Part shown: positions 634 to 11,787 of the stretch, one piece after another
How the letters are laid out: the number at the start of each line of letters is the position of its first letter
Numbering within the stretch: position 1 is the stretch's first letter
Assembly: GCA_030529205.1 (NCBI GenBank)
Contig: JAUMXJ010000016.1
Coordinates: forward strand, 1 to 11,872
Direction of reading: 5' to 3'
Source of the DNA: Bacillota bacterium
Lineage (GTDB): Bacteria; Bacillota; Clostridia; Peptostreptococcales; Acidaminobacteraceae
Length of the DNA: 11,872 nucleotides
The notes under the pieces: generated by a model
What the model saw: only the letters and a program-made list of their open reading frames with translations
What the model was told of the DNA's origin: nothing
The model's database searches: none
Program-made: the position numbers and the translations under genes

Positions 634-1560
634 TTGAATTTAGATCAAGTATTGGAAAGAGCTTACGAGTACGGAACGCGCTACATTCACAAGGGAAAGG
701 TGGCGGAATATATTCCGGAACTCGCAAAAGAAGACAAGGGCAGGGCATCTGCCGTCATATTCGACCGGGAAGGAAGAATTTTTCAAGTCGGAGACAGCAC
801 ATACCGCTTCTCCATGCAGAGCATCGTCAAGGTGGTCATCTACCTGTCGGTTCTCGAGAATTATGAGTTTTCTCATATCAAGAAATATGTGGGGGTCAAA
901 CCTTCTTCCAAGCCGTTTAACAGCATTCTGGAGCTGGAGCTCAGCAACAAGAGTATCCCGGTGAACCCCTTCATCAATGCGGGTGCGATTGTCGCCACCT
1001 CCCTGCTGTTTCAAAAGTACGGGGAGCGCTCCTTTGATATGATTCTCGACAAGGTTCGCCTGCTTCTCGGCGACCCGCAGGCGAGCCTGAGCGAATCGAT
1101 TTATCGGTCCGAGAAGAGTTCGGCATTTGCCAACAGAGCGCTGACTTATATGATGCTCAGCCACAAGATCATTCCCGCCGAACTGAATGTGGAGCATCTC
1201 CTCGACGTCTATTTTAAAAGCTGCTCGATTATGGTCGACACCGTCGGTCTCGGAAGACTCAGTCAGGTGCTGTCGAGAGACGGAATGAGCATAGAAGGAG
1301 CACGCCTGATTGCACCGGAACACGCGAAGATTTTGCGCACCGTGATGGCGAGTTGCGGGACATATGATTATTCCGGAGATTTCGCGATTCGCATAGGAAT
1401 TCCCGCGAAAAGCGGAGTAGGCGGAGGCATTGTGACCGCATCCAAGGCGGGGTACGGAATCGCGGTTTACTGCCCGGGATTGGACACACATGGAAACTCC
1501 TATGTGGGAACCAGAATGCTTCAGAGCATTTCAAGAGATTTGGAACTCTCGATTTACTAG
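634..1560 (+). CDS. glsA: Glutaminase (serine-type, GlsA family)
   Basis: This cytoplasmic enzyme hydrolyses L-glutamine to glutamate and ammonia. The 308-residue length is the normal single-domain bacterial size. Family landmarks are GKVAEYIPELAK (about 21-32), the catalytic SxxK motif in MQSIVKV (Ser63, Lys66), FNSI and the NPFINAGAI block (about 112-120), and a glycine-rich GIPAKSGVGGGI segment near the C-terminus. The start is a TTG at 634, supported by AGAGG at 624-628 and by the alignment of the N-terminus. It lies 13 bases after aroA and 73 bases before aroC, on the same strand, so it appears to be part of the aro operon. That position is unusual. A role in supplying ammonia or glutamate for chorismate-derived amino acids is possible but is only inference. 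The 73-base gap to aroC contains a 6-bp GC-rich hairpin (1570-1587) without a T tract. Confidence 0.93.
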   Translation: MNLDQVLERAYEYGTRYIHKGKVAEYIPELAKEDKGRASAVIFDREGRIFQVGDSTYRFSMQSIVKVVIYLSVLENYEFSHIKKYVGVKPSSKPFNSILELELSNKSIPVNPFINAGAIVATSLLFQKYGERSFDMILDKVRLLLGDPQASLSESIYRSEKSSAFANRALTYMMLSHKIIPAELNVEHLLDVYFKSCSIMVDTVGLGRLSQVLSRDGMSIEGARLIAPEHAKILRTVMASCGTYDYSGDFAIRIGIPAKSGVGGGIVTASKAGYGIAVYCPGLDTHGNSYVGTRMLQSISRDLELSIY

Positions 1561-1633
1561 AAAGCGCAGCCGCCGTATCGCCGGCGGAAGAGGGGAAGCA
1601 TTCTTCAGTAAAGAAATTTGAATCGGAGAGATT

Positions 1634-2740
1634 ATGTCATCGATATACGGAAACAGGATAAAGGTATCTCTCTTCGGAGAGTCGCACGGGGCGGCGGTGG
1701 GCTGTGTTCTGGACGGACTGCCCGCCGGTCTCGCACTCGATATGCCCTTTATTCGAACCAGACTTTCACAGCGACAGCACGGTGCATTTTCGATACGTTC
1801 ATATGCTGAGATGTCAAAGGGTTTGGAGGAAGAGGATGCTCTTCTCGAGATTTCGTCCGCGGTCACTGCCCGCAGCGAAAGTTTGGATTTTCACGTTCTC
1901 AGCGGATTGTCGGACGAGGGGATTTGTCAGGGCTCCCCTTTTATGGCGTATTTTCAGAATCGTGATATCAGGAGAGGAGATTACCGGCAACAAGAGCGAC
2001 ACTACCGTCCGGGCCATGCGGATTATGTCTCCGCAATGCGTTCAAACGGTCATGCCGATTTGAGCGGCGGCGGACATTTTTCCGGGCGTTTGACCGCACC
2101 GCTGGTTCTTGCGGGAGCGATTTGCGAGCAGATCCTCTCCCGGAGAGGAATCGGCTTCTCGGCGCATGTAGAGAATGTAGGCGGATGCAAAAGTTTCGCT
2201 GAAATAAACGATTTTTTGGAAAGCCTCGAGCGGGACGGGGATTCTGCGGGGAGTGAAATCAAGATTCGAATTGACGGGATGCCCTTGGGTGTGGGATCTC
2301 CTTTTTTTGACACTTTGGAAGGCGAGATTTCCAAACTTGTCTTCTCCGTGCCTGCCGTAAAGGGAATCGCATTCGGAGCCGGATTCGATTTTGTGGAGAA
2401 AAGAGGATCCGAAGTCGTGGACGCCTTCATTCTTGCCGAATCCGATCAGGGCAGCGGAACACATGTCGTCACGGATCACAATTACAACGGCGGGATCAAC
2501 GGCGGGATTTCCAACGGCATGCCGGTGGAATTTCGTGTCGCGGTAAAACCGACTTCCAGCATACGTGTTCCGGTCAGGACATTGAATTTCGAGACCATGT
2601 CGCAAGAGTTGTTGGTGACGGGAGGAAGACATGACAAATGTATCGGATTCAGAGCAATGGTCGCAATCGTTGCCGCAACGGCGATTGCGCTTGTGAATTT
2701 TACGGAAGGCTCGGAATCTTTTGATGAGAGCGTGAAATAA
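1634..2740 (+). CDS. aroC: Chorismate synthase
   Basis: It converts EPSP to chorismate using reduced FMN, the last step of the shikimate pathway. The 368-residue protein begins SSIYGNRIKVSLFGESHG, which is signature 1 with the first active-site histidine (His18). RPGHADY holds the second histidine (His128). GGGHFSGRLTAPL replaces the GGRSSARETA form, as in many clostridial enzymes. TGGRHDKC near the C-terminus matches the third signature. The ATG at 1634 is supported by GGAGAG at 1625-1630. Compared with the usual order, the expected RRxPG loop reads RQHG (47-50), and about 20 extra residues separate it from the T-x-R-x-E motif (TARSE, about 78-82). The enzyme is therefore divergent in this substrate-binding loop but otherwise complete. 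It probably shares a transcript with aroA and glsA. Confidence 0.95.
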   Translation: MSSIYGNRIKVSLFGESHGAAVGCVLDGLPAGLALDMPFIRTRLSQRQHGAFSIRSYAEMSKGLEEEDALLEISSAVTARSESLDFHVLSGLSDEGICQGSPFMAYFQNRDIRRGDYRQQERHYRPGHADYVSAMRSNGHADLSGGGHFSGRLTAPLVLAGAICEQILSRRGIGFSAHVENVGGCKSFAEINDFLESLERDGDSAGSEIKIRIDGMPLGVGSPFFDTLEGEISKLVFSVPAVKGIAFGAGFDFVEKRGSEVVDAFILAESDQGSGTHVVTDHNYNGGINGGISNGMPVEFRVAVKPTSSIRVPVRTLNFETMSQELLVTGGRHDKCIGFRAMVAIVAATAIALVNFTEGSESFDESVK

Positions 2741-2773: not shown

Positions 2774-3397
2774 ATGAATCGATCGATTTTTTTATATCGC
2801 GTCCTGCTCTTTGCAGCCGGGATTGCCGGAATTGTATTGCAGGTCTTGGACGACGGTGCGGGCATGTTTATGTACTACACCATTCTTTCCAATTTGCTGG
2901 TCGTGTTGTTCTTGGGGTACATGCTGGTGAAAAAAGGACGGCTCAGTGATCCCGATATCAGATCGAAAGACGGAGTCGCCATGGCAATCCTCATCACATG
3001 TGTGGTATATCATTTTATGCTCGCTCCGACGGCGAAGGCGAAAGACTATTACAATATAGAAAACTTTATATGTCACTACATTCTTCCGCTGGGCTTCATT
3101 GTGGATTCCCTCTTTTTCGATCGGGTTGCGACAAAGAAGACGGATCCTGTAAGCTGGTCGGTATTTCCTGTCGCATACTTTATATTTGCCTTGATGAACG
3201 GTCTTTTTCTGCATATTCCGATTCCGGGAAGGAAAAACTTTTATCCGTATTTTTTCGTCGATGTCGACAGGATGGGATTGATGAAAGTTCTGATGTTTTG
3301 TATGGTCATACTGATTGTATATATCGTGACGGGATATCTGTACTCGGCTCTAAAGTCCTTGATCCACAGCAGGATAACACGCAAAATTTCAAATTAA
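2774..3397 (+). CDS. Pr6Pr-type integral membrane protein, function unknown
   Basis: This 207-residue hydrophobic protein has about six predicted membrane helices (roughly residues 5-23, 33-52, 66-85, 97-114, 127-146 and 170-193). The spacing of features resembles the Pr6Pr / FAR-17a-AIG1-like membrane family: YYTILSNLLVV in helix 2, a threonine/tyrosine-rich helix 3 (LITCVVYHFML), HYILPLGFIVDSLFF in helix 4 and a YPYFFVDVDRMG loop before the last helix. In bacteria these proteins have no established function. The ATG at 2774 has GGAG at 2760-2763, about 10 bases upstream. It follows aroC by 33 bases on the same strand and probably ends the aro transcript. The family call rests on pattern memory of the YPY/F and T-SN motifs, so it is moderate. 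That it is a multi-pass membrane protein is clear. Confidence 0.8.
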   Translation: MNRSIFLYRVLLFAAGIAGIVLQVLDDGAGMFMYYTILSNLLVVLFLGYMLVKKGRLSDPDIRSKDGVAMAILITCVVYHFMLAPTAKAKDYYNIENFICHYILPLGFIVDSLFFDRVATKKTDPVSWSVFPVAYFIFALMNGLFLHIPIPGRKNFYPYFFVDVDRMGLMKVLMFCMVILIVYIVTGYLYSALKSLIHSRITRKISN

Positions 3398-3481: not shown

Positions 3482-5275
3482 ATGAAAGGTACGGTAGTAT
3501 CAAGTTGGATGATTTCTTGCCGCCATCTATACGGCGATCGTGTCGTGGATGCGGCGCTTGAAAAATACGGATTCGATCGGAATTATGTCTTCTCTCCGCT
3601 GGAGGATGTTCCGGACACCGCTGCGCGGGGAATGATTGATTTCATCGGCGCCGAAATGGGCGTGGATAAGGCGCAGATCTGGGGAAAGATGGGAGAAGAG
3701 AATATTGTGACATTTTCCCGTAATTACAGCGGATTTTTCAGACAGGAGAATGCATACCGCTTTTTGAAGTCGATGAACGATGTGCATGAAATCGTCATGA
3801 AGCGCTTCAAAGGAGCGACACCGCCTATTCTGGATATGGAGATCATCTCTCCGAGAGAGGCGATGTTCATCTATCGATCCAAGAGGGGAATGGGTGATTA
3901 TTTGGCAGGTCTCCTGAGAGGGGTTGCCAAACATTTCAAAGAGGACATCAAAGTGGAAAAAATCTCGGCGTCCGACAGCGAAATCAGGTTGAAGCTGACA
4001 TTCCCGAGCGAGATTACATTTAAAAAGAAATATCGCCTGAACACCTTGCTCTCATTCGGCATAATCAAAAACAGCGGAGTGAAGTCGGCGATTTTAACAG
4101 CTCTTCTGACCGCCGTTCCGCTTTTTTCTCTCGGAGGATTCAGCTGGCAAACCGGAGTGATTGCCGGGTGTGTTCCGCTGATTGCGGCGCTCAGCAATGC
4201 ACTTTTGGCGCGGCCGTTGAAGATCTTGATGAATGAGATGTCCGATTTGTCGCAGAGGAAGTATTCCGCGAAGCTCGATATCCGAACGGAAGATGAATAC
4301 GAGGATATGATGCGGTATATGGCGGCTTTGAAGTATACGATTCAAAAAGATTTTATCGAGTTTAATTCCACTGCGGATGAGATGTCGACTTTCAATCACT
4401 CCCTGGCACACATCTCGGATGTCATGGAGGGCACATCGGACAGCATCAAAAATTCAATCGAGCATCTTGCAGGCTCGACACATACACAGGCACAAAATAC
4501 CGAGCATCTGGTCGAAGTTCTCAACAAAAGCATACAGAACATTGCGGATATTTCCGCAGAAAGCCAGACGAACAATGACAAGATTACAACCGCAATGCAT
4601 CGCATCGAGAGCAGTTTTGTAGAGGTGGAAAGCACCGCAAATCAGATTGTGGGCGTTATGGAGCAGTTCAAAGAGATCAAGAACAGCGGAAATCAGCTGC
4701 AGAGCAATGCACAGAGTATTACGGAGATTGTCTCCATTGTGTCCGGAATCGCGTCTCAAATCAATCTGCTTGCACTCAATGCATCGATTGAAGCATCCCG
4801 TGCCGGGGATGCGGGCAGAGGTTTCGGAGTGGTGGCGGATGAGGTCAGAAAACTTTCCGTGGAGACGAATCTCGCAGTCGAGCGCATCAACAGCGGCCTG
4901 GGCGGCTTTGTCAGCGATTTGGAGCGCTTGGTGAGCGGAATCGATTCACAGTACGCAGTCCTGGATCAGGGAAGCGTATCGCTCGAAAATGCCGTCTCCA
5001 CATCCGCACAATCCAAGGACAATCTGAAAGAAGTGTCTTCGCTCATGATTGCGACATCGGAACATCTCAAAGCGGAGGCGGGAAGAATTTCCTCCCTGTT
5101 CGATCCGATTCAAAATCTCGCCGCACTCGGAGAAGAAAACTCCGCGTCCACTCAGGAGGCGAGTCAGAGCGTTTCCGACTATGTCGAGCAGATTACGGAG
5201 CTCTCCGGAAAGATCAGTGTGTTCCAAAATCTGATTCAGGACTTCCAGTCCAAGCTTCAGGAATACAAGATATAA
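3482..5275 (+). CDS. H-NOX (haem NO/O2-binding) domain fused to a methyl-accepting chemotaxis protein
   Basis: This 597-residue protein is a haem-based chemoreceptor. Residues 1-185 form an H-NOX domain closely resembling that of Thermoanaerobacter (Tt/Tar4 H-NOX), apparently gap-free through residue 140. His102 (DVHEIV) is the proximal haem ligand, Pro115 lies in GATPP, and Tyr131/Ser133/Arg135 form the YxSxR haem-propionate motif. In the distal pocket Trp9, Asn74, Phe78 and Tyr140 are all present. In the Thermoanaerobacter domain Trp9/Asn74/Tyr140 is the hydrogen-bond network that stabilises bound O2. Two adjacent membrane helices (about 202-220 and 223-243) follow with almost no extracellular loop, then a HAMP-like linker starting RPL (244-246). 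The MCP signalling domain contains the conserved hairpin, with LLALNASIEASRAG and GRGFGVVADEVRKLS around 428-458. No C-terminal NWETF-like pentapeptide is seen. The protein likely signals to CheA/CheW in response to O2 or NO. It is a single-gene unit with its own promoter and terminator. Confidence 0.96.
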   Translation: MKGTVVSSWMISCRHLYGDRVVDAALEKYGFDRNYVFSPLEDVPDTAARGMIDFIGAEMGVDKAQIWGKMGEENIVTFSRNYSGFFRQENAYRFLKSMNDVHEIVMKRFKGATPPILDMEIISPREAMFIYRSKRGMGDYLAGLLRGVAKHFKEDIKVEKISASDSEIRLKLTFPSEITFKKKYRLNTLLSFGIIKNSGVKSAILTALLTAVPLFSLGGFSWQTGVIAGCVPLIAALSNALLARPLKILMNEMSDLSQRKYSAKLDIRTEDEYEDMMRYMAALKYTIQKDFIEFNSTADEMSTFNHSLAHISDVMEGTSDSIKNSIEHLAGSTHTQAQNTEHLVEVLNKSIQNIADISAESQTNNDKITTAMHRIESSFVEVESTANQIVGVMEQFKEIKNSGNQLQSNAQSITEIVSIVSGIASQINLLALNASIEASRAGDAGRGFGVVADEVRKLSVETNLAVERINSGLGGFVSDLERLVSGIDSQYAVLDQGSVSLENAVSTSAQSKDNLKEVSSLMIATSEHLKAEAGRISSLFDPIQNLAALGEENSASTQEASQSVSDYVEQITELSGKISVFQNLIQDFQSKLQEYKI

Positions 5276-5341: not shown

Positions 5342-5608
5342 TCCGAGAATTAGCATGAGGTCAACAAATAAAATAGATACGGCTATGCAGTAGGCAATAC
5401 TGTTTTTCTCAGCAACAAGAGATATTATTACTATACATAGCAATTAAGCTCATCCAATATCCATTATGAATGGGGACGTTATCTCATACCATCTAAAGTG
5501 CTATTTATAACACCCCAAAGAATTATCAGTATAAAATTGGTAAGCTTATATCACGAATCGATATAATACAGCAGTTGTTTGGTTCAGAATTTAGAAAAGA
5601 AGGAATAT
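5342..5608. other. AT-rich intergenic stretch with possible decayed coding fragments
   Basis: No intact gene, RNA gene or repeat is recognised here. The base composition is visibly richer in A and T than the flanking genes. One frame is open from 5497 through a stop at 5620-5622 and ends with protein-like residues KIGKLISRIDIIQQLFGSEF and then RKEGIYELK. A second plus-strand frame reads YEWGRYLIPSKVLFITPQ from 5465. Together they could be the tail of a frameshifted gene, but no family is recognised. The stretch could also be non-coding. Confidence 0.35.
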
Positions 5609-5805
5609 ATGAACTAAAGTAAGAATTCAGTTAAGAAAAAGAATTGCCGAATCGGGGGTTACCCTGTCGGCAGAGCCGCTTCCTATTATGGTGTACCGGA
5701 CGACGGACAATAACGAAATCGTTTCCAACACAATGGACAATATATCGTAGAGGACCTGAAATCGGCGTGGAAACACTTCTCATTGTGATTGAAAAGGAAA
5801 AATAA
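5609..5805 (+). pseudogene. Possible small frameshifted gene remnant, family unknown
   Basis: An ATG at 5609 with AAGAAGGA a few bases upstream is followed after one codon by a stop. A one-base shift restores a protein-like frame (TKVRIQLRKRIAESGVTLSA, then EPLPIMVYRTTDNNEIVSNT) that runs to a stop at 5748-5750. After a further shift the sequence reads GVETLLIVIEKEK and stops at 5803-5805. Sequence of this quality in changing frames suggests a decayed gene of about 65 residues. No domain is recognised. Chance open frames remain possible. Confidence 0.3.
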
Positions 5806-5818
5806 AGATCTTATTTTT

Positions 5819-5852
5819 AAAGTCCTATGAACCGACAGGCTCATAGGACTTT
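5819..5852. terminator. 12-bp perfect hairpin between convergent units, probable terminator
   Basis: AAAGTCCTATGA-type arms (5819-5830 region and 5841-5852) are perfectly complementary around a 10-base loop. The hairpin sits 28 bases beyond the stop of the DUF454 gene on the minus strand and after the decayed stretch on the plus strand. On the plus strand it is followed by TTTGTCTT, a weak T tract. On the minus strand the following bases are A-rich, so termination there would be inefficient or depend on the hairpin alone. Confidence 0.5.
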
Positions 5853-5879
5853 GTCTTCGGTGCACTCATACACGAGGCA

Positions 5880-6251
5880 TTATTTTTTGTTTTTGACGAC
5901 AAAAATGAAGTAGATGATGTGAAAGAGCCAGATAATGCCGAGCACGGCGAGACCGACGGGGACTCTGCGCATCATGTAGAAGGCGATGCCGAACAGGATG
6001 GTGACGAGGGTGATGACCTTTGTCTTGGTTTGCCTGGTCATTCCCTGTCCGTTCACATAGCTCTCCAGATTGTTCTTATACAGTCTCGTTCCTTTGAACC
6101 AGCGATCGAGTCGTTCCGAACTCTTGGCAAAACAGACGGCCGCGAGCATCAGGAAGGGGAAAGACGGCAAAAACGGCATGACCGCCCCGACTGCTCCCAG
6201 TCCGACTCCGATACAGCCCGTTCCGATTAACAAAATCTTTTTGATTCCCAT
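5880..6251 (-). CDS. DUF454 / YbaN-family small inner-membrane protein
   Basis: This 123-residue protein has a hydrophobic N-terminal half and two further hydrophobic segments near the C-terminus (about 79-95 and 98-118). The core motif G-AVGAVMPFLPSFPFLMLAA followed by CFAKSSERLDRWF (about 19-52) matches the YbaN/DUF454 pattern 'GxxLPxLPTTPFLLLAAxCFARSSxRLxxWL'. The biochemical function of the family is not established. The ATG at 6251 is the only sensible start. The upstream gene ends 6 bases before it, so it is the last gene of the four-gene minus-strand operon. A role as membrane accessory to the ABC transporter upstream is inference from that arrangement. Confidence 0.88.
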   Translation of the reverse strand: MGIKKILLIGTGCIGVGLGAVGAVMPFLPSFPFLMLAAVCFAKSSERLDRWFKGTRLYKNNLESYVNGQGMTRQTKTKVITLVTILFGIAFYMMRRVPVGLAVLGIIWLFHIIYFIFVVKNKK

Positions 6252-6257
6252 ATTTCT

Positions 6258-6695
6258 TTATTCTCTCCTATTTGTTTGCAGTGATTGTTCGCTGTCGGTC
6301 ACCTTGTCGGGATTGGCTCGACTGCGCTTCCATTCCCTTTTTGATTCAATCAGATGGCGTACGACCGTCACGGGGTTCGTGAACAGCAGGTGCGGGCCCG
6401 AAAAGCGCATGACGTTTTTTATCTTTCCCCTCATGTCCGGAGTATAACAGTGCACCTTGCAATTCGAGCAAAATGTTTTTTCCTGCATAAACGGACAGAG
6501 GTCCGCGCGTTTCATCGCATAGCCGAGCAGGGATGCACATTCATCGCACAGCGAGAGTGATATCTCCTTGCCCTGTATACGGATTTTTATGATTTTCTTC
6601 GGAAGTTGTCTGTGCTTTTTCCTGCAGTAGACGGCAATCATCCGAGAGACGAGTTTCTTTTCGTCATTGCGTTTTTTGTTCGTATCCCGATTCAT
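6258..6695 (-). CDS. YgbA-type 'nitrous oxide-stimulated promoter' family protein, cysteine-rich
   Basis: A 145-residue soluble basic protein. Seven cysteines (24, 50, 53, 67, 76, 79, 83) occur in the family's pattern: MIAVYC..KH, LCDECASLLGYA, LCPF..EKTFCSNCKVHCY, then VMRFSGPHLLFTNPVTVVRHL. This is the layout of the YgbA_NO family. In E. coli ygbA is part of the nitric-oxide-responsive NsrR regulon. The molecular function is unsettled, and the cysteines suggest a metal or Fe-S site. The ATG at 6695 has GGGG 9 bases upstream. It lies 27 bases after the CydC-like gene and 6 bases before the DUF454 gene. The last 25 or so residues are polar and outside the conserved domain. Confidence 0.88.
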   Translation of the reverse strand: MNRDTNKKRNDEKKLVSRMIAVYCRKKHRQLPKKIIKIRIQGKEISLSLCDECASLLGYAMKRADLCPFMQEKTFCSNCKVHCYTPDMRGKIKNVMRFSGPHLLFTNPVTVVRHLIESKREWKRSRANPDKVTDSEQSLQTNRRE

Positions 6696-6722
6696 TTTTT
6701 ATATCCCCAACTTGTTGCGTTG

Positions 6723-8438
6723 TCAGCTGTTTCGCGCGGCGGCGGAGATGTCGTGGATGGAGATGATATCATCGCAGATGCGCAGTGTGGATTTTCTGTG
6801 TGAGACGAGGACAATCGTCTTTTCTTTCTTCTTTTCCGCAAGAGATTTCAGAATCATCGCCTCGTTCAAGCTGTCAAGGTTGCTGGTCGGCTCGTCGAGG
6901 AGCATGAGCGGAGCATCGTGCAGAAAAGCTCTCGCCAGCCCGATTCGCTGTCGTTCTCCTCCGGAAAGTGTGTCTCCGAGTTCTCCGACCGGTGTCTCAT
7001 AGCCTTTCGGAAGGCTGATAATAAAGTCGTGAATGGATGCTTTTTTTGCAGCTTCTTCGATTTCTTCCTGCGTTGCATCCAATTTCGCTACGCGGATATT
7101 GCCGGCAATGCTGTCGTGGAAGAGATGAGTGGTCTGCGTGACAAAGCTCTCCATATCTCTGAGATTGTCGGTATTGATCTCGTCGATATTTTTGTTGCTC
7201 TGTGTCTTGGCATCGCGGATATTGATTTCGCCGCTTCCGATTTTCCAGAATCTCATAAACAGACGGAGCAAGGTGGATTTTCCGCTCCCGCTCTTTCCGA
7301 TGATGCCGATTGCGCCGCCCTTCGGTATCTCGATCGAGACATTTTTCAGGACTTCTTCGCCGTCATATGCAAAGCTGAGATTGTCTGTGTGAATTCCGGA
7401 GAAAACGGCTTCTTCTTTTCCGACGATGTCTTCGACAAGGGGTTCTTCATCCAGAATGTCCAGCACTCTGTTGCCCGATGCGAAAGTGCCCTGCAGAGTG
7501 GAACCGAGGGCTGCAAGAGCAAGGGTAGGGCCGAAGGACGATACCAATGCGACAAAGGGGATGATGACGCCCGCCGCGCGGATTTCTCCGTTTTCCCAAA
7601 GATGGACTCCGGAGAGAAGGAAGAGGGCGCTGACAATGGTGATGAAGGCGCTCGTGAGGGAAAAGTTGATTCCGCCGATGGCCTTCATTTTGCGCTCGCT
7701 CTCCGTGAGTGCAAGGGTGCGCGCGTTCATTTCATCGCGTCTTTGTTCCCCCTGTGAATATTGGATGGTCTGTGACAGACCTCTGAGGTTGTCGAGTACG
7801 AAGCTCGCAAGGTTTCCCGTCTTGGTGCGGTGTTCGAGTCCGATGCGGCCGTTCATTTTGGAGATCATGAACGGGAAAACCACGCCGATGATGAAGTAGA
7901 CGGCGAGAGAAAAGAGACCGAGGAGCATATGGAAAGAGCCTATGAAGAGCACCATCACAACCGTGTAAAGCGCCGCAATAGCCGCAGGTGAGATGGTATG
8001 TGCGTAAAAGACTTCCAACAGCTCGACATCGGAGGTGATGACGGAAATCAGGTTGCCCTTGTCCCTTCCTTCGAGTTTTGCAGGGCAAAGTCTGCGCAGG
8101 GAGCGGAACACATTGTCGCGCAACAAAGCCAGCAGTTTGAAAGCGATGTAGTGATTGCAGAGCTGTTCCCCGTAGCGGAACACGCCTCTCAGTAGTCCGA
8201 GGAGCGCAATCACGACAAAGAGAATCGTCAAAGACATTCCCGTCTCGAGGATGCCGAGTGCCGCCAGAACCGCAACCGCACCGAGCACGGTAATGAATGT
8301 CGCCGCCAGATGCCCGAGCAGGCCCTGAAAAATGGCAAGGAACATGTAGCCTGTCAGAGGCTTCACCAGGACAATGAGCCTCGACATGACGCCGATATTG
8401 CTGCGTGTTCTCTCCGCGTTTGCCGCATTATTTCTCAT
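6723..8438 (-). CDS. ABC transporter, fused permease/ATPase half-transporter, CydC-like
   Basis: 571 residues: an N-terminal six-helix exporter-type membrane domain (about 20-320) and a C-terminal nucleotide-binding domain. Walker A GKSGSGKST starts at 381, the signature LSGGERQ at 491, then Walker B LMLLDEPTS and the H-loop VSHR. The membrane domain shows CydC traits such as RYGEQLCNHYIAFKLLALLR and a G-LIS-ITSDVELLE segment. CydDC of E. coli is a heterodimeric exporter of cysteine and glutathione that has also been described as a haem transporter, so the substrate here is uncertain. The frame is open upstream to 8603, but the ATG at 8438 has AGGAGG nine bases ahead and overlaps the partner gene by 11 bases, which favours translational coupling. 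The products probably form a heterodimer. No cytochrome bd genes are nearby, so assignment as true CydC is not justified. Confidence 0.92.
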   Translation of the reverse strand: MRNNAANAERTRSNIGVMSRLIVLVKPLTGYMFLAIFQGLLGHLAATFITVLGAVAVLAALGILETGMSLTILFVVIALLGLLRGVFRYGEQLCNHYIAFKLLALLRDNVFRSLRRLCPAKLEGRDKGNLISVITSDVELLEVFYAHTISPAAIAALYTVVMVLFIGSFHMLLGLFSLAVYFIIGVVFPFMISKMNGRIGLEHRTKTGNLASFVLDNLRGLSQTIQYSQGEQRRDEMNARTLALTESERKMKAIGGINFSLTSAFITIVSALFLLSGVHLWENGEIRAAGVIIPFVALVSSFGPTLALAALGSTLQGTFASGNRVLDILDEEPLVEDIVGKEEAVFSGIHTDNLSFAYDGEEVLKNVSIEIPKGGAIGIIGKSGSGKSTLLRLFMRFWKIGSGEINIRDAKTQSNKNIDEINTDNLRDMESFVTQTTHLFHDSIAGNIRVAKLDATQEEIEEAAKKASIHDFIISLPKGYETPVGELGDTLSGGERQRIGLARAFLHDAPLMLLDEPTSNLDSLNEAMILKSLAEKKKEKTIVLVSHRKSTLRICDDIISIHDISAAARNS

Positions 8439-10251
8439 GAGCGTCGCCCTCCTTTTTGATTCCGAAGTTCTCCAGATTCTGTTGCGCATTCCAGAGTCTT
8501 GCATATGTCGCATTTCGCGCAAGCAGCCCGTCATGGCTGCCGGATTCGACAACTTCGCCGTCCTGCATGACATAGACGGTATCCGATTCCACCACATTGG
8601 CAAGTCGATGTGAAATCAGAATGACGGTCTTTCTGCCTTTGAGCGCCTTTACTTCGTTCATAATGATTTCTTCGCTTTCCATATCGATATTCGACGTCGC
8701 TTCATCGAATATATAGAGCGGGGTGTCGTGGAGAAGCGCTCTTGCGAGTGCAAGCCTTTGGCATTGTCCCCCCGACAGGTTAGCCGCCTTCTCCTGCAAC
8801 ATGGTCTCCAGACCGTTCTCGCTTCGAAGGAAGTCGGCGAGGTTCACTTTCTCAAGGATTTGCCACATTTCTTCATCCGTGGCGTCCTTCTTCGCCATGA
8901 GAAGATTTTCCTTGACGCTGCCTTTGAAAAGGTAAGAATTGAAACTGATGTAGGTGATATTCTTCATCAGGCTGTCTTCGGTGATGTCCGAGAGTTCGGC
9001 ACTTCCCGCCTTGATATTTCCCAGGTAACCCTTATTTTTAAGCGTGAGCAGAGCGGCAATCGTCGTCTTTCCCGACCCGGATTCCCCGACGATGGAGACA
9101 AAAGATCCTTTCGGAATCTCCAGGGAGACATTTTTCAGAACCTGCCTCTCCGGGGTATAGGAGAAATGGACACGATCCAACTTAATATCCGAGTTTGCAG
9201 GGTAGGAAACCGATCTGCCCGTGTCCTCCGGGGTGTCGAGCAGTCTGAAGATTTTTCCGCTCGCAGCCATTCCGTTCATCGCAATGTGGAAGAAGCTTCC
9301 GAGTGCGCGCATCGGGAGAAAGAAATCCGCGGATATCAGGATGGTGAAGATGGCAACCGATGCGCTGATGTTTCCCGCCGCAAGCTGGGCGGCGGAGATG
9401 ATGATGCCGAGCGCAGCCCCTCCGTATGCGACAAGGTCCATAATGATAATGGAATTGAGCTGCATGGTGAGTACTTTCATGGTGATGACGCGGAAGTGTT
9501 CCGCCTCAACATTCATCCGATCATGTCTGTGCGCATCGCTCTTGTAAATTTTAAGCGTGGTCAGGCCTTGCAAATTTTCAAGGAAGGTGTCTCCCAGCGC
9601 CGTGTACTGTCCCCAGTATTTCGAGAGAAGTTTCTTCGCCCAGGTCTGTACCGCGGCAATCGAAACGGGAATAAGCGGCACACAGATAAAGAGAACGAGC
9701 GCGGCGATGAAGTTGAAGGGAGCCAGCACGATAAACAACGTAATCGGAGAGAGCATGGCGATGAAAAATTGCGGAAGATATCCCGCGAAGTATGTCTCCA
9801 GCTGTTCCACTCCTTCTACCGCAAGCTGTACCACTTCCGAAGTTTGAACGTCCTGATTGTAGGACGCGCCGATGCGGAGCAGTTTTTTATAGATTTTGTC
9901 GCGCAGCGTCGTCTTGACCGCTTTTGACGACAAGTAGCTCAGGTGATTGGAAAGGTAGATAATCCCGATTCTGAGTACGACGGCGGTCAACAAAATAATG
10001 CCGAAAATCAGCATCGGATTGTTTCCGAAGATGCCGTGGATGACATTTTCCGTCCTGCTCGGAGTGAAAAAGGGCGAGATTCCTTTTGTTGAAAAAAGGT
10101 GTTCAAAATGAATCAATCCGCCCAATAAAAGAGAAAAACTTGCCATTATGACAATGTTGAGCAGCAGCGATATCCACTGCAGCGCAACACTGATGCCGAT
10201 ATATTTTTTGCATTGGCTGACCGTGCGAATCAGCCGTTTGTTGATCATCAT
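8428..10251 (-). CDS. ABC transporter, fused permease/ATPase half-transporter, CydD-like
   Basis: 607 residues: an exporter-type membrane domain (about 15-330) and an ATPase domain with Walker A GESGSGKTT (389-397), signature LSGGQCQR from 492 (a cysteine where Arg or Lys is more usual), Walker B LYIFDEATS and H-loop ISHR. The segment YFAGYLPQFFIAMLSPITLF with a following VPLIPVSI is typical of CydD. Two ATGs in tandem (10251, 10248) lie 5 and 8 bases after GGAGG (10257-10261), and either could be used. The longer open frame to 10341 runs through the promoter and Fur box and is rejected. It is the first gene of a four-gene operon under a predicted Fur-controlled promoter, so transport of haem, an iron chelator or a thiol is more likely than drug export. 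The substrate is not known. Confidence 0.92.
   Translation of the reverse strand: MMINKRLIRTVSQCKKYIGISVALQWISLLLNIVIMASFSLLLGGLIHFEHLFSTKGISPFFTPSRTENVIHGIFGNNPMLIFGIILLTAVVLRIGIIYLSNHLSYLSSKAVKTTLRDKIYKKLLRIGASYNQDVQTSEVVQLAVEGVEQLETYFAGYLPQFFIAMLSPITLFIVLAPFNFIAALVLFICVPLIPVSIAAVQTWAKKLLSKYWGQYTALGDTFLENLQGLTTLKIYKSDAHRHDRMNVEAEHFRVITMKVLTMQLNSIIIMDLVAYGGAALGIIISAAQLAAGNISASVAIFTILISADFFLPMRALGSFFHIAMNGMAASGKIFRLLDTPEDTGRSVSYPANSDIKLDRVHFSYTPERQVLKNVSLEIPKGSFVSIVGESGSGKTTIAALLTLKNKGYLGNIKAGSAELSDITEDSLMKNITYISFNSYLFKGSVKENLLMAKKDATDEEMWQILEKVNLADFLRSENGLETMLQEKAANLSGGQCQRLALARALLHDTPLYIFDEATSNIDMESEEIIMNEVKALKGRKTVILISHRLANVVESDTVYVMQDGEVVESGSHDGLLARNATYARLWNAQQNLENFGIKKEGDAHEK
8448..8453 (-). 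promoter_or_regulatory. Ribosome binding site that fixes the CydC-like start
   Basis: AGGAGG on the minus strand, inside the end of the CydD-like gene, is nine bases before the ATG at 8438. It rules out the longer in-frame start near 8603, which would overlap the upstream gene by about 175 bases. Confidence 0.85.
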
Positions 10252-10308
10252 GCGTGCCTCCGAAAAGCGTTTCAACACAAAAAACACATTTTGCGTCTCT
10301 AGATGAAT

Positions 10309-10337
10309 ATTATAGTAATTATCATTATCATATACAA
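10309..10337 (-). promoter_or_regulatory. Sigma-A-type promoter of the CydDC-like operon
   Basis: On the minus strand a perfect TATAAT (10309-10314) is preceded at exactly 17 bases by TTGTAT (10332-10337), which matches TTGACA at three of six positions. The predicted start is near 10302, giving a leader of about 50 bases to the ATG. The weak -35 and strong -10 are offset by the AT-rich spacer, which is occupied by the Fur box. Confidence 0.75.
10311..10329 (-). promoter_or_regulatory. Fur box overlapping the promoter
   Basis: GATAATGATAATTACTATA matches the 19-base Fur consensus GATAATGATAATCATTATC at 16 positions, including the first 12 in a row. It also contains overlapping 7-1-7 type half sites (TGATAAT repeated). 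It covers the spacer and part of the -10 of the operon promoter, so Fur bound with Fe2+ would be expected to block transcription. Repression by iron is inferred from position and family knowledge. Confidence 0.8.
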
Positions 10338-10400
10338 GCAATATAAATGAATTATGAAATGAAGGGAAAAAGAAATGGAACTTGCAAATATATTCCGACG

Positions 10401-10424
10401 AAAAAAAAGCTCCCCTGAGGGAGC
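10401..10424 (-). terminator. Intrinsic terminator of the serpin gene
   Basis: On the minus strand GCTCCC (10424-10419), a TCAG loop and GGGAGC (10414-10409) are followed directly by eight T residues. It starts 20 bases beyond the serpin stop codon and separates that gene from the CydDC-like operon promoter downstream. Confidence 0.95.
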
Positions 10425-10443
10425 AAGTGTTGTAATTTGCAGG

Positions 10444-11787
10444 TTATGGAATGTTTCGAACGCTTCCGCAGAACAGGATGTTTCGATCTCTTCCTACAAT
10501 CAGGAAGAGAAACGGACGGTCGACAATGAATTCGTTTTCCGACGCCGTTATGAATGCGGTCATGGAGATTTCGTAAGTGCTGTATGCCGCTCCCGTTATC
10601 CCCTGCTCATCGAACATGACTCTCGCGGCATGTTCCGCATTGCTGATGGCGACATTTGGGGAATCGGTCAATGCGCCGAAATCGGCTCCGAAACTTGCCG
10701 TGACTTCCAAAGCGCCCAGCGATTCCAAAAGTTTTTTCAGATCGATTTTGGAGTCGAGATCAAACTTCGGAATCTTGCACAAGGAAGTCGGGTTTGTTAT
10801 CATTTTGCGAGATTTTTCGTCATCCAGGAGATTCAGAAAGGAGAGCGCGGAATCTTCCGCTTCCTCCAATACGGTATTGAGATGGTACGCCTCGTTCGGA
10901 AGAATGAAGTAACAGACATTCTCTCCGCCGAGCGGGATTTCCACGGCTTTCCAGTGTTCGCTTTTATACTGTGTGAACGGGTGGCTGTTTTGCATCATCT
11001 CCACTTCTCTGTCACTTTCGGTACCGCGGAAAATCTCCTTTTTCGTTTCTTCCGCATCGAATGCGTTTTTCCATGCGGTTTTGTAGTAAATGGTTGAAAT
11101 CAGCCGGATGAGCATTTGCGGATGGATCTCGATTCGGTCCGTATATTTTTTGAGCAATCCTTCCGTCGCACGGTTTATCCAATTTCTAAGCTCTTCCGTA
11201 TATGCCGCATCTTGCGGATCTCCTATAAAAGAGTCGGCATAGTACTCTTTGGAGAGGATATCCAAGACATCTTTCTTCACCGACAAGGTATGATTCAGCC
11301 AAACGGAGTTGGATAGAATGCTCTTATGCTGTTCAAACAGCTCGTAATTGGCGTTCCATGTGTCGCGAACGCATGCGCGCAAATCGGAGATTTTTTCAAA
11401 GCCAAGGATGCGGAGGAGTTCCGCTCGGGTGGTTCCCTCCGTGTATTCCGCCAACATCGCTGTGGCTATGTAGATATTGATCGGAGACAGGATGATGTTT
11501 TCTCCCTTTTCTGCGGTCAGTGCCTTCTTCAGCGTCTGTGCATAGAAAGGTTTGAGTTTGGCACTGTGGCGCAACGAGGCATCGGAACGTTTGCGCATAT
11601 CTTCGTGCCATGCCGAGATTTTCCGTTGCTTTGCGTCGTCCTCTTCGCTTTCCTGATAAGTCATGCGCTCAGGACGTTCGGACAAGTTCTTGAGAACGGA
11701 TTCGGTTTTCGGCGTGTCGCCCGTACAGGATGTGAAAATCAAAGAGATGATGAGCAGGCACGAAACAAGGACTTGCTTTTTGTTCAT
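10444..11787 (-). CDS. Serpin-family lipoprotein (secreted protease-inhibitor fold)
   Basis: 447 residues. The N-terminus (KK, hydrophobic stretch, then SLIFTSC) is a lipoprotein signal with lipid-attachment Cys21; Phe at -3 is tolerated but not ideal. A polar linker (about 22-78) leads to a full serpin domain, with ENIILSPINIYIATAML..YTEGTTRAELLRILG at about 95-130, SNSVWLN, then NWINRATEGLL and LISTIYYKTAWKNAF. The serpin signature FIVDRPFLFLI lies at about 420-430 before the C-terminal NILFCGSV strand. The reactive loop (about 396-422) begins EQG-ITGAAYST, where inhibitory serpins usually have EEG-T-x-AAAAT, so the hinge is atypical at P14, P12 and P9. The protein is likely anchored on the outer face of the membrane. 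Its target is unknown, and inhibition is likely but not certain. The ATG at 11787 has AGGAGG (11793-11798) five bases ahead. No clear promoter was identified in the remaining 74 bases. Confidence 0.93.
   Translation of the reverse strand: MNKKQVLVSCLLIISLIFTSCTGDTPKTESVLKNLSERPERMTYQESEEDDAKQRKISAWHEDMRKRSDASLRHSAKLKPFYAQTLKKALTAEKGENIILSPINIYIATAMLAEYTEGTTRAELLRILGFEKISDLRACVRDTWNANYELFEQHKSILSNSVWLNHTLSVKKDVLDILSKEYYADSFIGDPQDAAYTEELRNWINRATEGLLKKYTDRIEIHPQMLIRLISTIYYKTAWKNAFDAEETKKEIFRGTESDREVEMMQNSHPFTQYKSEHWKAVEIPLGGENVCYFILPNEAYHLNTVLEEAEDSALSFLNLLDDEKSRKMITNPTSLCKIPKFDLDSKIDLKKLLESLGALEVTASFGADFGALTDSPNVAISNAEHAARVMFDEQGITGAAYSTYEISMTAFITASENEFIVDRPFLFLIVGRDRNILFCGSVRNIP

Follow-up and report, generated by a model that had tools for sequence, protein, structure and literature searches.

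How an anaerobe seemingly without heme synthesis runs a heme-based oxygen (O2) receptor is the question raised by a stretch of 11,872 nucleotides from a Bacillota bacterium (contig JAUMXJ010000016.1, assembly GCA_030529205.1). This whole stretch is termed the window here, and coordinates refer to its forward strand. The gene in question (3482..5275, forward strand; ATG at 3482, stop at 5273-5275 included) is an open reading frame for 597 amino acids, in which domain matches and a structural model place an H-NOX domain, two transmembrane helices and a methyl-accepting chemotaxis protein (MCP) chemoreceptor domain, in that order. From sequence and model, the product is probably (about 0.7) a membrane-anchored, O2-binding chemoreceptor of the H-NOX class that gives movement away from O2. 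The receptor is a further member of the recognised O2-binding H-NOX-MCP class and is without novelty; what was less to be expected is the apparent inability of many carriers to make heme, so that the sensor may use heme from outside.

Receptor and heme pocket

The H-NOX domain is placed at residues 1-186 (3482..4039) with support from Pfam, phmmer and fold comparison, and the family HNOB (PF07700) matches residues 2-159, scoring 138.9 bits (cut-off 25.5). The MCP signalling domain (PF00015, 96.4 bits) matches residues 388-522 (4643..5047), with a conserved hairpin tip around residues 430-438. Between these domains, hydropathy and helices of the AlphaFold2 model indicate two transmembrane helices (residues about 198-216 and 223-242; 4073..4207). 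Fusion to a membrane-bound MCP, a mark of the O2-binding H-NOX-MCP class, is thus seen in the PF00015 match and the predicted helices.

In a phmmer search of the PDB, residues 1-172 align to the H-NOX domain of Caldanaerobacter subterraneus subsp. tengcongensis (Tt (Cs) H-NOX; 1u4h) with 118.4 bits and an E-value of 2.9e-33. The earliest gap comes only after residue 167, and 62 of 163 N-terminal residues are identical. An earlier note on this DNA had stated that Trp9, Asn74 and Tyr140 occur together with His102 and YxSxR, apparently in the gap-free numbering of Thermoanaerobacter H-NOX; the alignment bears this out, as W9, N74, H102, P115, Y131, S133, R135 and Y140 are present, in register and identically numbered in both proteins. 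Trp9 (3506..3508) and Asn74 (3701..3703) belong to the distal pocket. By homology to Tt H-NOX, we take His102 (3785..3787) to be the proximal heme ligand and Pro115 (3824..3826) the heme-distorting residue, while Y131-x-S133-x-R135 (3872..3886) presumably forms the heme propionate motif. Tyr140 (3899..3901) would be the O2 hydrogen-bond donor, a role described for the distal Tyr in excerpts of PMC12329717. The pocket region also shares I75, F78 and L144 with Tt H-NOX, and differs from it in V5 for I5, Y82 for F82, L141 for F141 and L145 for I145. Misplacement of Tyr140 or Asn74 is ruled out by this in-register alignment, and the Pfam scores together with the invariant residues rule out a chance or degenerate domain. 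The fold comparison against the PDB also came out in favour of H-NOX, a fold (and heme-domain Pfam family) common to the NO-type H-NOX proteins of facultative anaerobes (S. oneidensis and V. cholerae), which sense nitric oxide (NO), and to the beta1 subunit of soluble guanylate cyclase.

W9, N74, H102 and Y140 are invariant in all 119 listed homologues (P0002-P0120), a set biased to near relatives since it holds the best 120 of 3619 protein-search hits, one being the window protein itself. The same four residues are invariant in 28 of 28 loci (27 in other genomes, plus L030 from Hathewaya massiliensis), L031-L036 having been left out before counting because they match the MCP part only. H102, P115, Y131, S133 and R135 are likewise invariant across the 28 loci, carriers without heme synthesis included. 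A complete O2-type pocket is therefore the rule in the set examined, not the exception. Searching with the isolated H-NOX domain returned 17 matches of 46-65% identity, all short proteins or fragments, and yielded no NO-type control set.

In strict anaerobes, H-NOX proteins are MCP fusions that have a distal Tyr and form a stable Fe(II)-O2 complex, according to excerpts of PMC12329717 and PMC8738867 (the rule also appears in those of PMC9814294). NO-type H-NOX proteins, as described in the excerpts of PMC12329717, lack the distal Tyr and act with kinases or cyclic di-GMP enzymes. Typical of this class are a hydrophobic residue in place of the Tyr and a partner enzyme encoded in the same operon. 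The window protein differs from them on both counts: Tyr140 is present, and the domain is fused to an MCP in a gene flanked by a Pr6Pr-type membrane protein and DUF454.

Among the listed relatives, P0006 is an H-NOX-MCP 73% identical to the window protein. The H. massiliensis H-NOX-MCP (L030) is 40% identical over residues 1-597 and has the same pocket. A midpoint-rooted tree was built from 62 sequences: the window protein, the 28 loci and 33 proteins out of the 119 listed. Here the window protein falls in with listed proteins, some of them named Anaerocolumna and Velocimicrobium by source. Further out stand G006, G024 and G034, from one genus of the same family as the source genome (43-44% identical), followed by G044; the remaining same-family copies, 30-36% identical, lie apart. 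This placement could result from transfer or from old paralogy.

Lifestyle, motility and the predicted signalling route

The source genome, which is 63% complete, was compared with 60 relatives, and H-NOX was found in 28 of these 61 genomes. No heme-copper oxidase (COX1) was matched in any of the 61, and CydA was matched in only three, the source genome not among them; H-NOX and CydA show no association (p 0.59). Anaerobic life, presumed in the earlier note, is supported at the level of the lineage, with 58 of 61 genomes giving no CydA match, and would hold for the source organism by extension, its own genome being incomplete.

The flagellin-type family PF00669, which includes FlgL, was found in 41 of the 61 genomes. 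It occurs with H-NOX in 27, while one genome has H-NOX only, 14 have PF00669 only and 19 have neither (Fisher p 4.9e-6, in a test that ignores the kinship of the genomes). The match in the source genome is a FlgL-like protein clustered with FlgM, FlgN, FlgK, FliW and CsrA (G000:C46, L065), and a CheW-domain fragment stands at the start of its contig C233. Flagellar genes, the CheW fragment and the co-occurrence with PF00669 all fit a working chemoreceptor.

In the proposed mechanism, the cytosolic N-terminal H-NOX domain would hold ferrous heme via His102, and Tyr140, together with Trp9 and Asn74, would hydrogen-bond bound O2; by virtue of this bonding the domain would bind O2 besides NO and carbon monoxide. 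Ligand binding would alter the distortion of the heme and the relative position of the two H-NOX subdomains, a change that may be relayed through the transmembrane hairpin and a coiled coil to the MCP tip. From there, signalling through CheW and CheA to the flagellar motor would produce swimming away from O2. Sequence, model and co-occurrence are the grounds on which we infer that O2 is bound and avoided and that heme is taken up, and the direction of the signal is likewise a prediction.

Heme supply and neighbouring genes

Ferrochelatase (PF00762) was matched at E <=0.001 in four of the 61 genomes and exceeded its cut-off in one (G051; 34 bits, a partial match); G041, G046 and G057, at 19-20 bits, were counted as without it. 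HemE (TIGR01464) exceeded its 303-bit cut-off in none of the 61, and weak matches of <=97 bits in 17 genomes, the source genome included, would represent related methyltransferases. The 500-bit cut-off of AhbD (TIGR04545) was also reached in none of the 61. In seven genomes (G011, G037, G039, G050, G052, G055 and G057), a TIGR04545 match of 320-362 bits lies near a second one of 209-239 bits. The best of all other matches is at 119 bits, and these pairs are read as AhbD with AhbC. Six of the seven pair genomes carry H-NOX (both, H-NOX only, pair only, neither: 6/22/1/32; p 0.041, uncorrected).

None of ferrochelatase, HemE and AhbC/D was detected in 21 of the 28 H-NOX genomes, including the source genome, where incompleteness means that absences say little. 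The same set is absent from 18 of the 25 H-NOX genomes that are at least 90% complete, and the H. massiliensis genome has no ferrochelatase match and no strong AhbD match (best 62 bits). Because the residues that bind heme do not vary among the 28 loci, the domain probably does contain heme, which is probably acquired; in most carriers examined it would be acquired rather than made, and an unrecognised route of heme synthesis may exist in carriers. NEAT domains occur in six of the 61 genomes, two of them with H-NOX (G037 and G057), in neither the source genome nor any of 14 control genomes. As a general route of heme uptake they were rejected, since so few carriers have them, which leaves supply in most unexplained. 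Among the literature matches listed for H-NOX with heme synthesis or ferrochelatase, no title or abstract opening addresses the source of the heme.

Downstream of the receptor gene, four reverse-strand genes identified by domain matches lie in a row. They encode a DUF454 membrane protein (5883..6251), a YgbA_NO family protein (6261..6695), a CydC-like ABC transporter (6726..8603; 321 bits against a cut-off of 329) and a CydD-like ABC transporter (8431..10341; 374 bits against 435). The transporters are called CydDC-like because CydD and CydC are their best-scoring NCBIfam families, yet both fall below cut-off, in a genome where CydA, as noted, was not matched. CydCD of E. faecalis is linked to heme uptake in excerpts of PMC11282960, and CydDC of E. 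coli is called a heme transporter in those of PMC10374445. The Pr6Pr-family gene (2774-3397, forward strand) lies directly upstream of the receptor gene, 84 bases away. Elsewhere in the window, a glutaminase gene stands between aroA and aroC (634-2737, forward strand), the aroC product (chorismate synthase) being 58% identical to its nearest relative among the matches listed, and a serpin gene (10447-11787, reverse strand; PF00079, 206 bits) encodes a protein whose N-terminus resembles a lipoprotein signal.

A conserved H-NOX gene neighbourhood was rejected. The nine other genes of the window, Pr6Pr included, were not detected next to H-NOX at the 27 other loci or in the 17.8-kb stretch around L030, within flanks of up to about 10 kb that are much shorter at contig ends (5.3 kb for L083). 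The sole partial exception is a generic ABC protein in L050, 27.6% identical to the CydC-like protein. In nine other genomes with YgbA, some on short contigs, DUF454 is adjacent in three (G007, G014 and G048) and CydD or CydDC in two (G014 and G037). In G037 the run (L062, 9139-19901, reverse strand) comprises an ABC ATPase truncated at the edge of the stretch, a pair of nitrogenase-component-1-like proteins, a BilS-like flavodoxin (117 bits against a cut-off of 155), an IsdE-like binding protein (243 against 299), a NEAT protein (over the Pfam cut-off; 71 against 156 for IsdC), a class B sortase scoring above its cut-off, CydD-like and CydC-like proteins, YgbA and a flavodoxin. From its gene content this CydDC-YgbA run appears to be a heme-uptake setting, and its nitrogenase-like proteins and BilS-like flavodoxin could form a reductive heme or bilin enzyme. 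CydA was not matched in G037, but an Ahb-like pair is present. No literature joining heme, IsdE, nitrogenase-like proteins and YgbA was found.

For the window, CydDC-YgbA-DUF454 as a possible heme supply for H-NOX is a lead and not a result, the two being near each other only in this genome. A wider proposal, which we hold tentatively and think somewhat doubtful, is a heme-gated O2 sensor. Most clostridial carriers would be unable to make heme, would load the receptor only with external heme, and would use it to avoid O2 only in places where heme is available, from a host, blood or heme-making neighbours; here, the CydDC-YgbA-DUF454 genes close to the receptor gene would serve as a unit for the uptake or handling of heme, freed from cytochrome bd assembly.

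Competing signals and implications

Several points weigh against O2 avoidance. Besides the kinship disregarded in the PF00669 comparison, the association has its sole exception in G052 (L003, L067), which has an H-NOX-MCP and an Ahb-like pair and no PF00669 match. In the immediate surroundings of His102 and Pro115 the model loses confidence (block means of 66 and 72), and the absence of recognisable heme synthesis from 21 of 28 carriers bears on the heme load of the cell. The O2-sensor role of the Tt-type domain is proposed and not yet demonstrated, as stated in excerpts of PMC9814294. Such domains bind NO too, and 1xbn, which carries the Tt sequence, is titled a nitric oxide sensor in the PDB.

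The domain might bind O2 in vitro and yet respond in nature to NO, encountered in nitrate-reducing communities or in the tissue of a host, with the cell swimming away from NO; we consider this unlikely. Apart from the title of 1xbn, it draws on the YgbA_NO family gene about 1 kb downstream of the receptor gene. YgbA is an NsrR-regulon gene, and it is mentioned in the literature together with NsrR and nitrosative stress. Hemerythrin-domain genes stand no more than about 4 kb from it in two of the nine other YgbA genomes (G013 and G007; neighbours scanned in five of the nine), a setting that suggests NO or O2 stress. In these stretches (L058 of G013, 8998-11778; L059 of G007, 5455-9988), hemerythrin and PAS_10 domain genes and DUF1858 are found, with a Crp-type regulator in L058. 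Loss of CydDC renders E. coli sensitive to NO, according to excerpts of PMC4785604. However, YgbA is absent from the stretches examined at the other 27 H-NOX loci, and it does not co-occur significantly with H-NOX (6/22/4/29, p 0.49). The distal Tyr is invariant, whereas NO-specific H-NOX proteins are without it, as noted above. A heme-free receptor is a still less probable account: in heme-poor settings the domain would be mostly empty and would sense how much heme is supplied, or the redox state, instead of a gas. The 21 carriers lacking detectable heme synthesis, and the response of heme-free V. cholerae H-NOX to oxidation (excerpts of PMC7108781), speak for it. Against it, the redox response of V. 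cholerae H-NOX uses Cys residues, of which the domain of the window protein has one, Cys13, and H102, P115, Y131, S133 and R135 are kept in all 28 loci, even where no heme synthesis is recognised.

An O2-binding chemoreceptor that gives movement away from O2 is the reading we prefer, and in this the interpretation of the earlier note is supported. If its heme is scavenged, the ability of many anaerobes to avoid O2 would hinge on the heme that their environment offers, and in bacteria without cytochrome bd the CydDC-like transporters would gain a candidate role.
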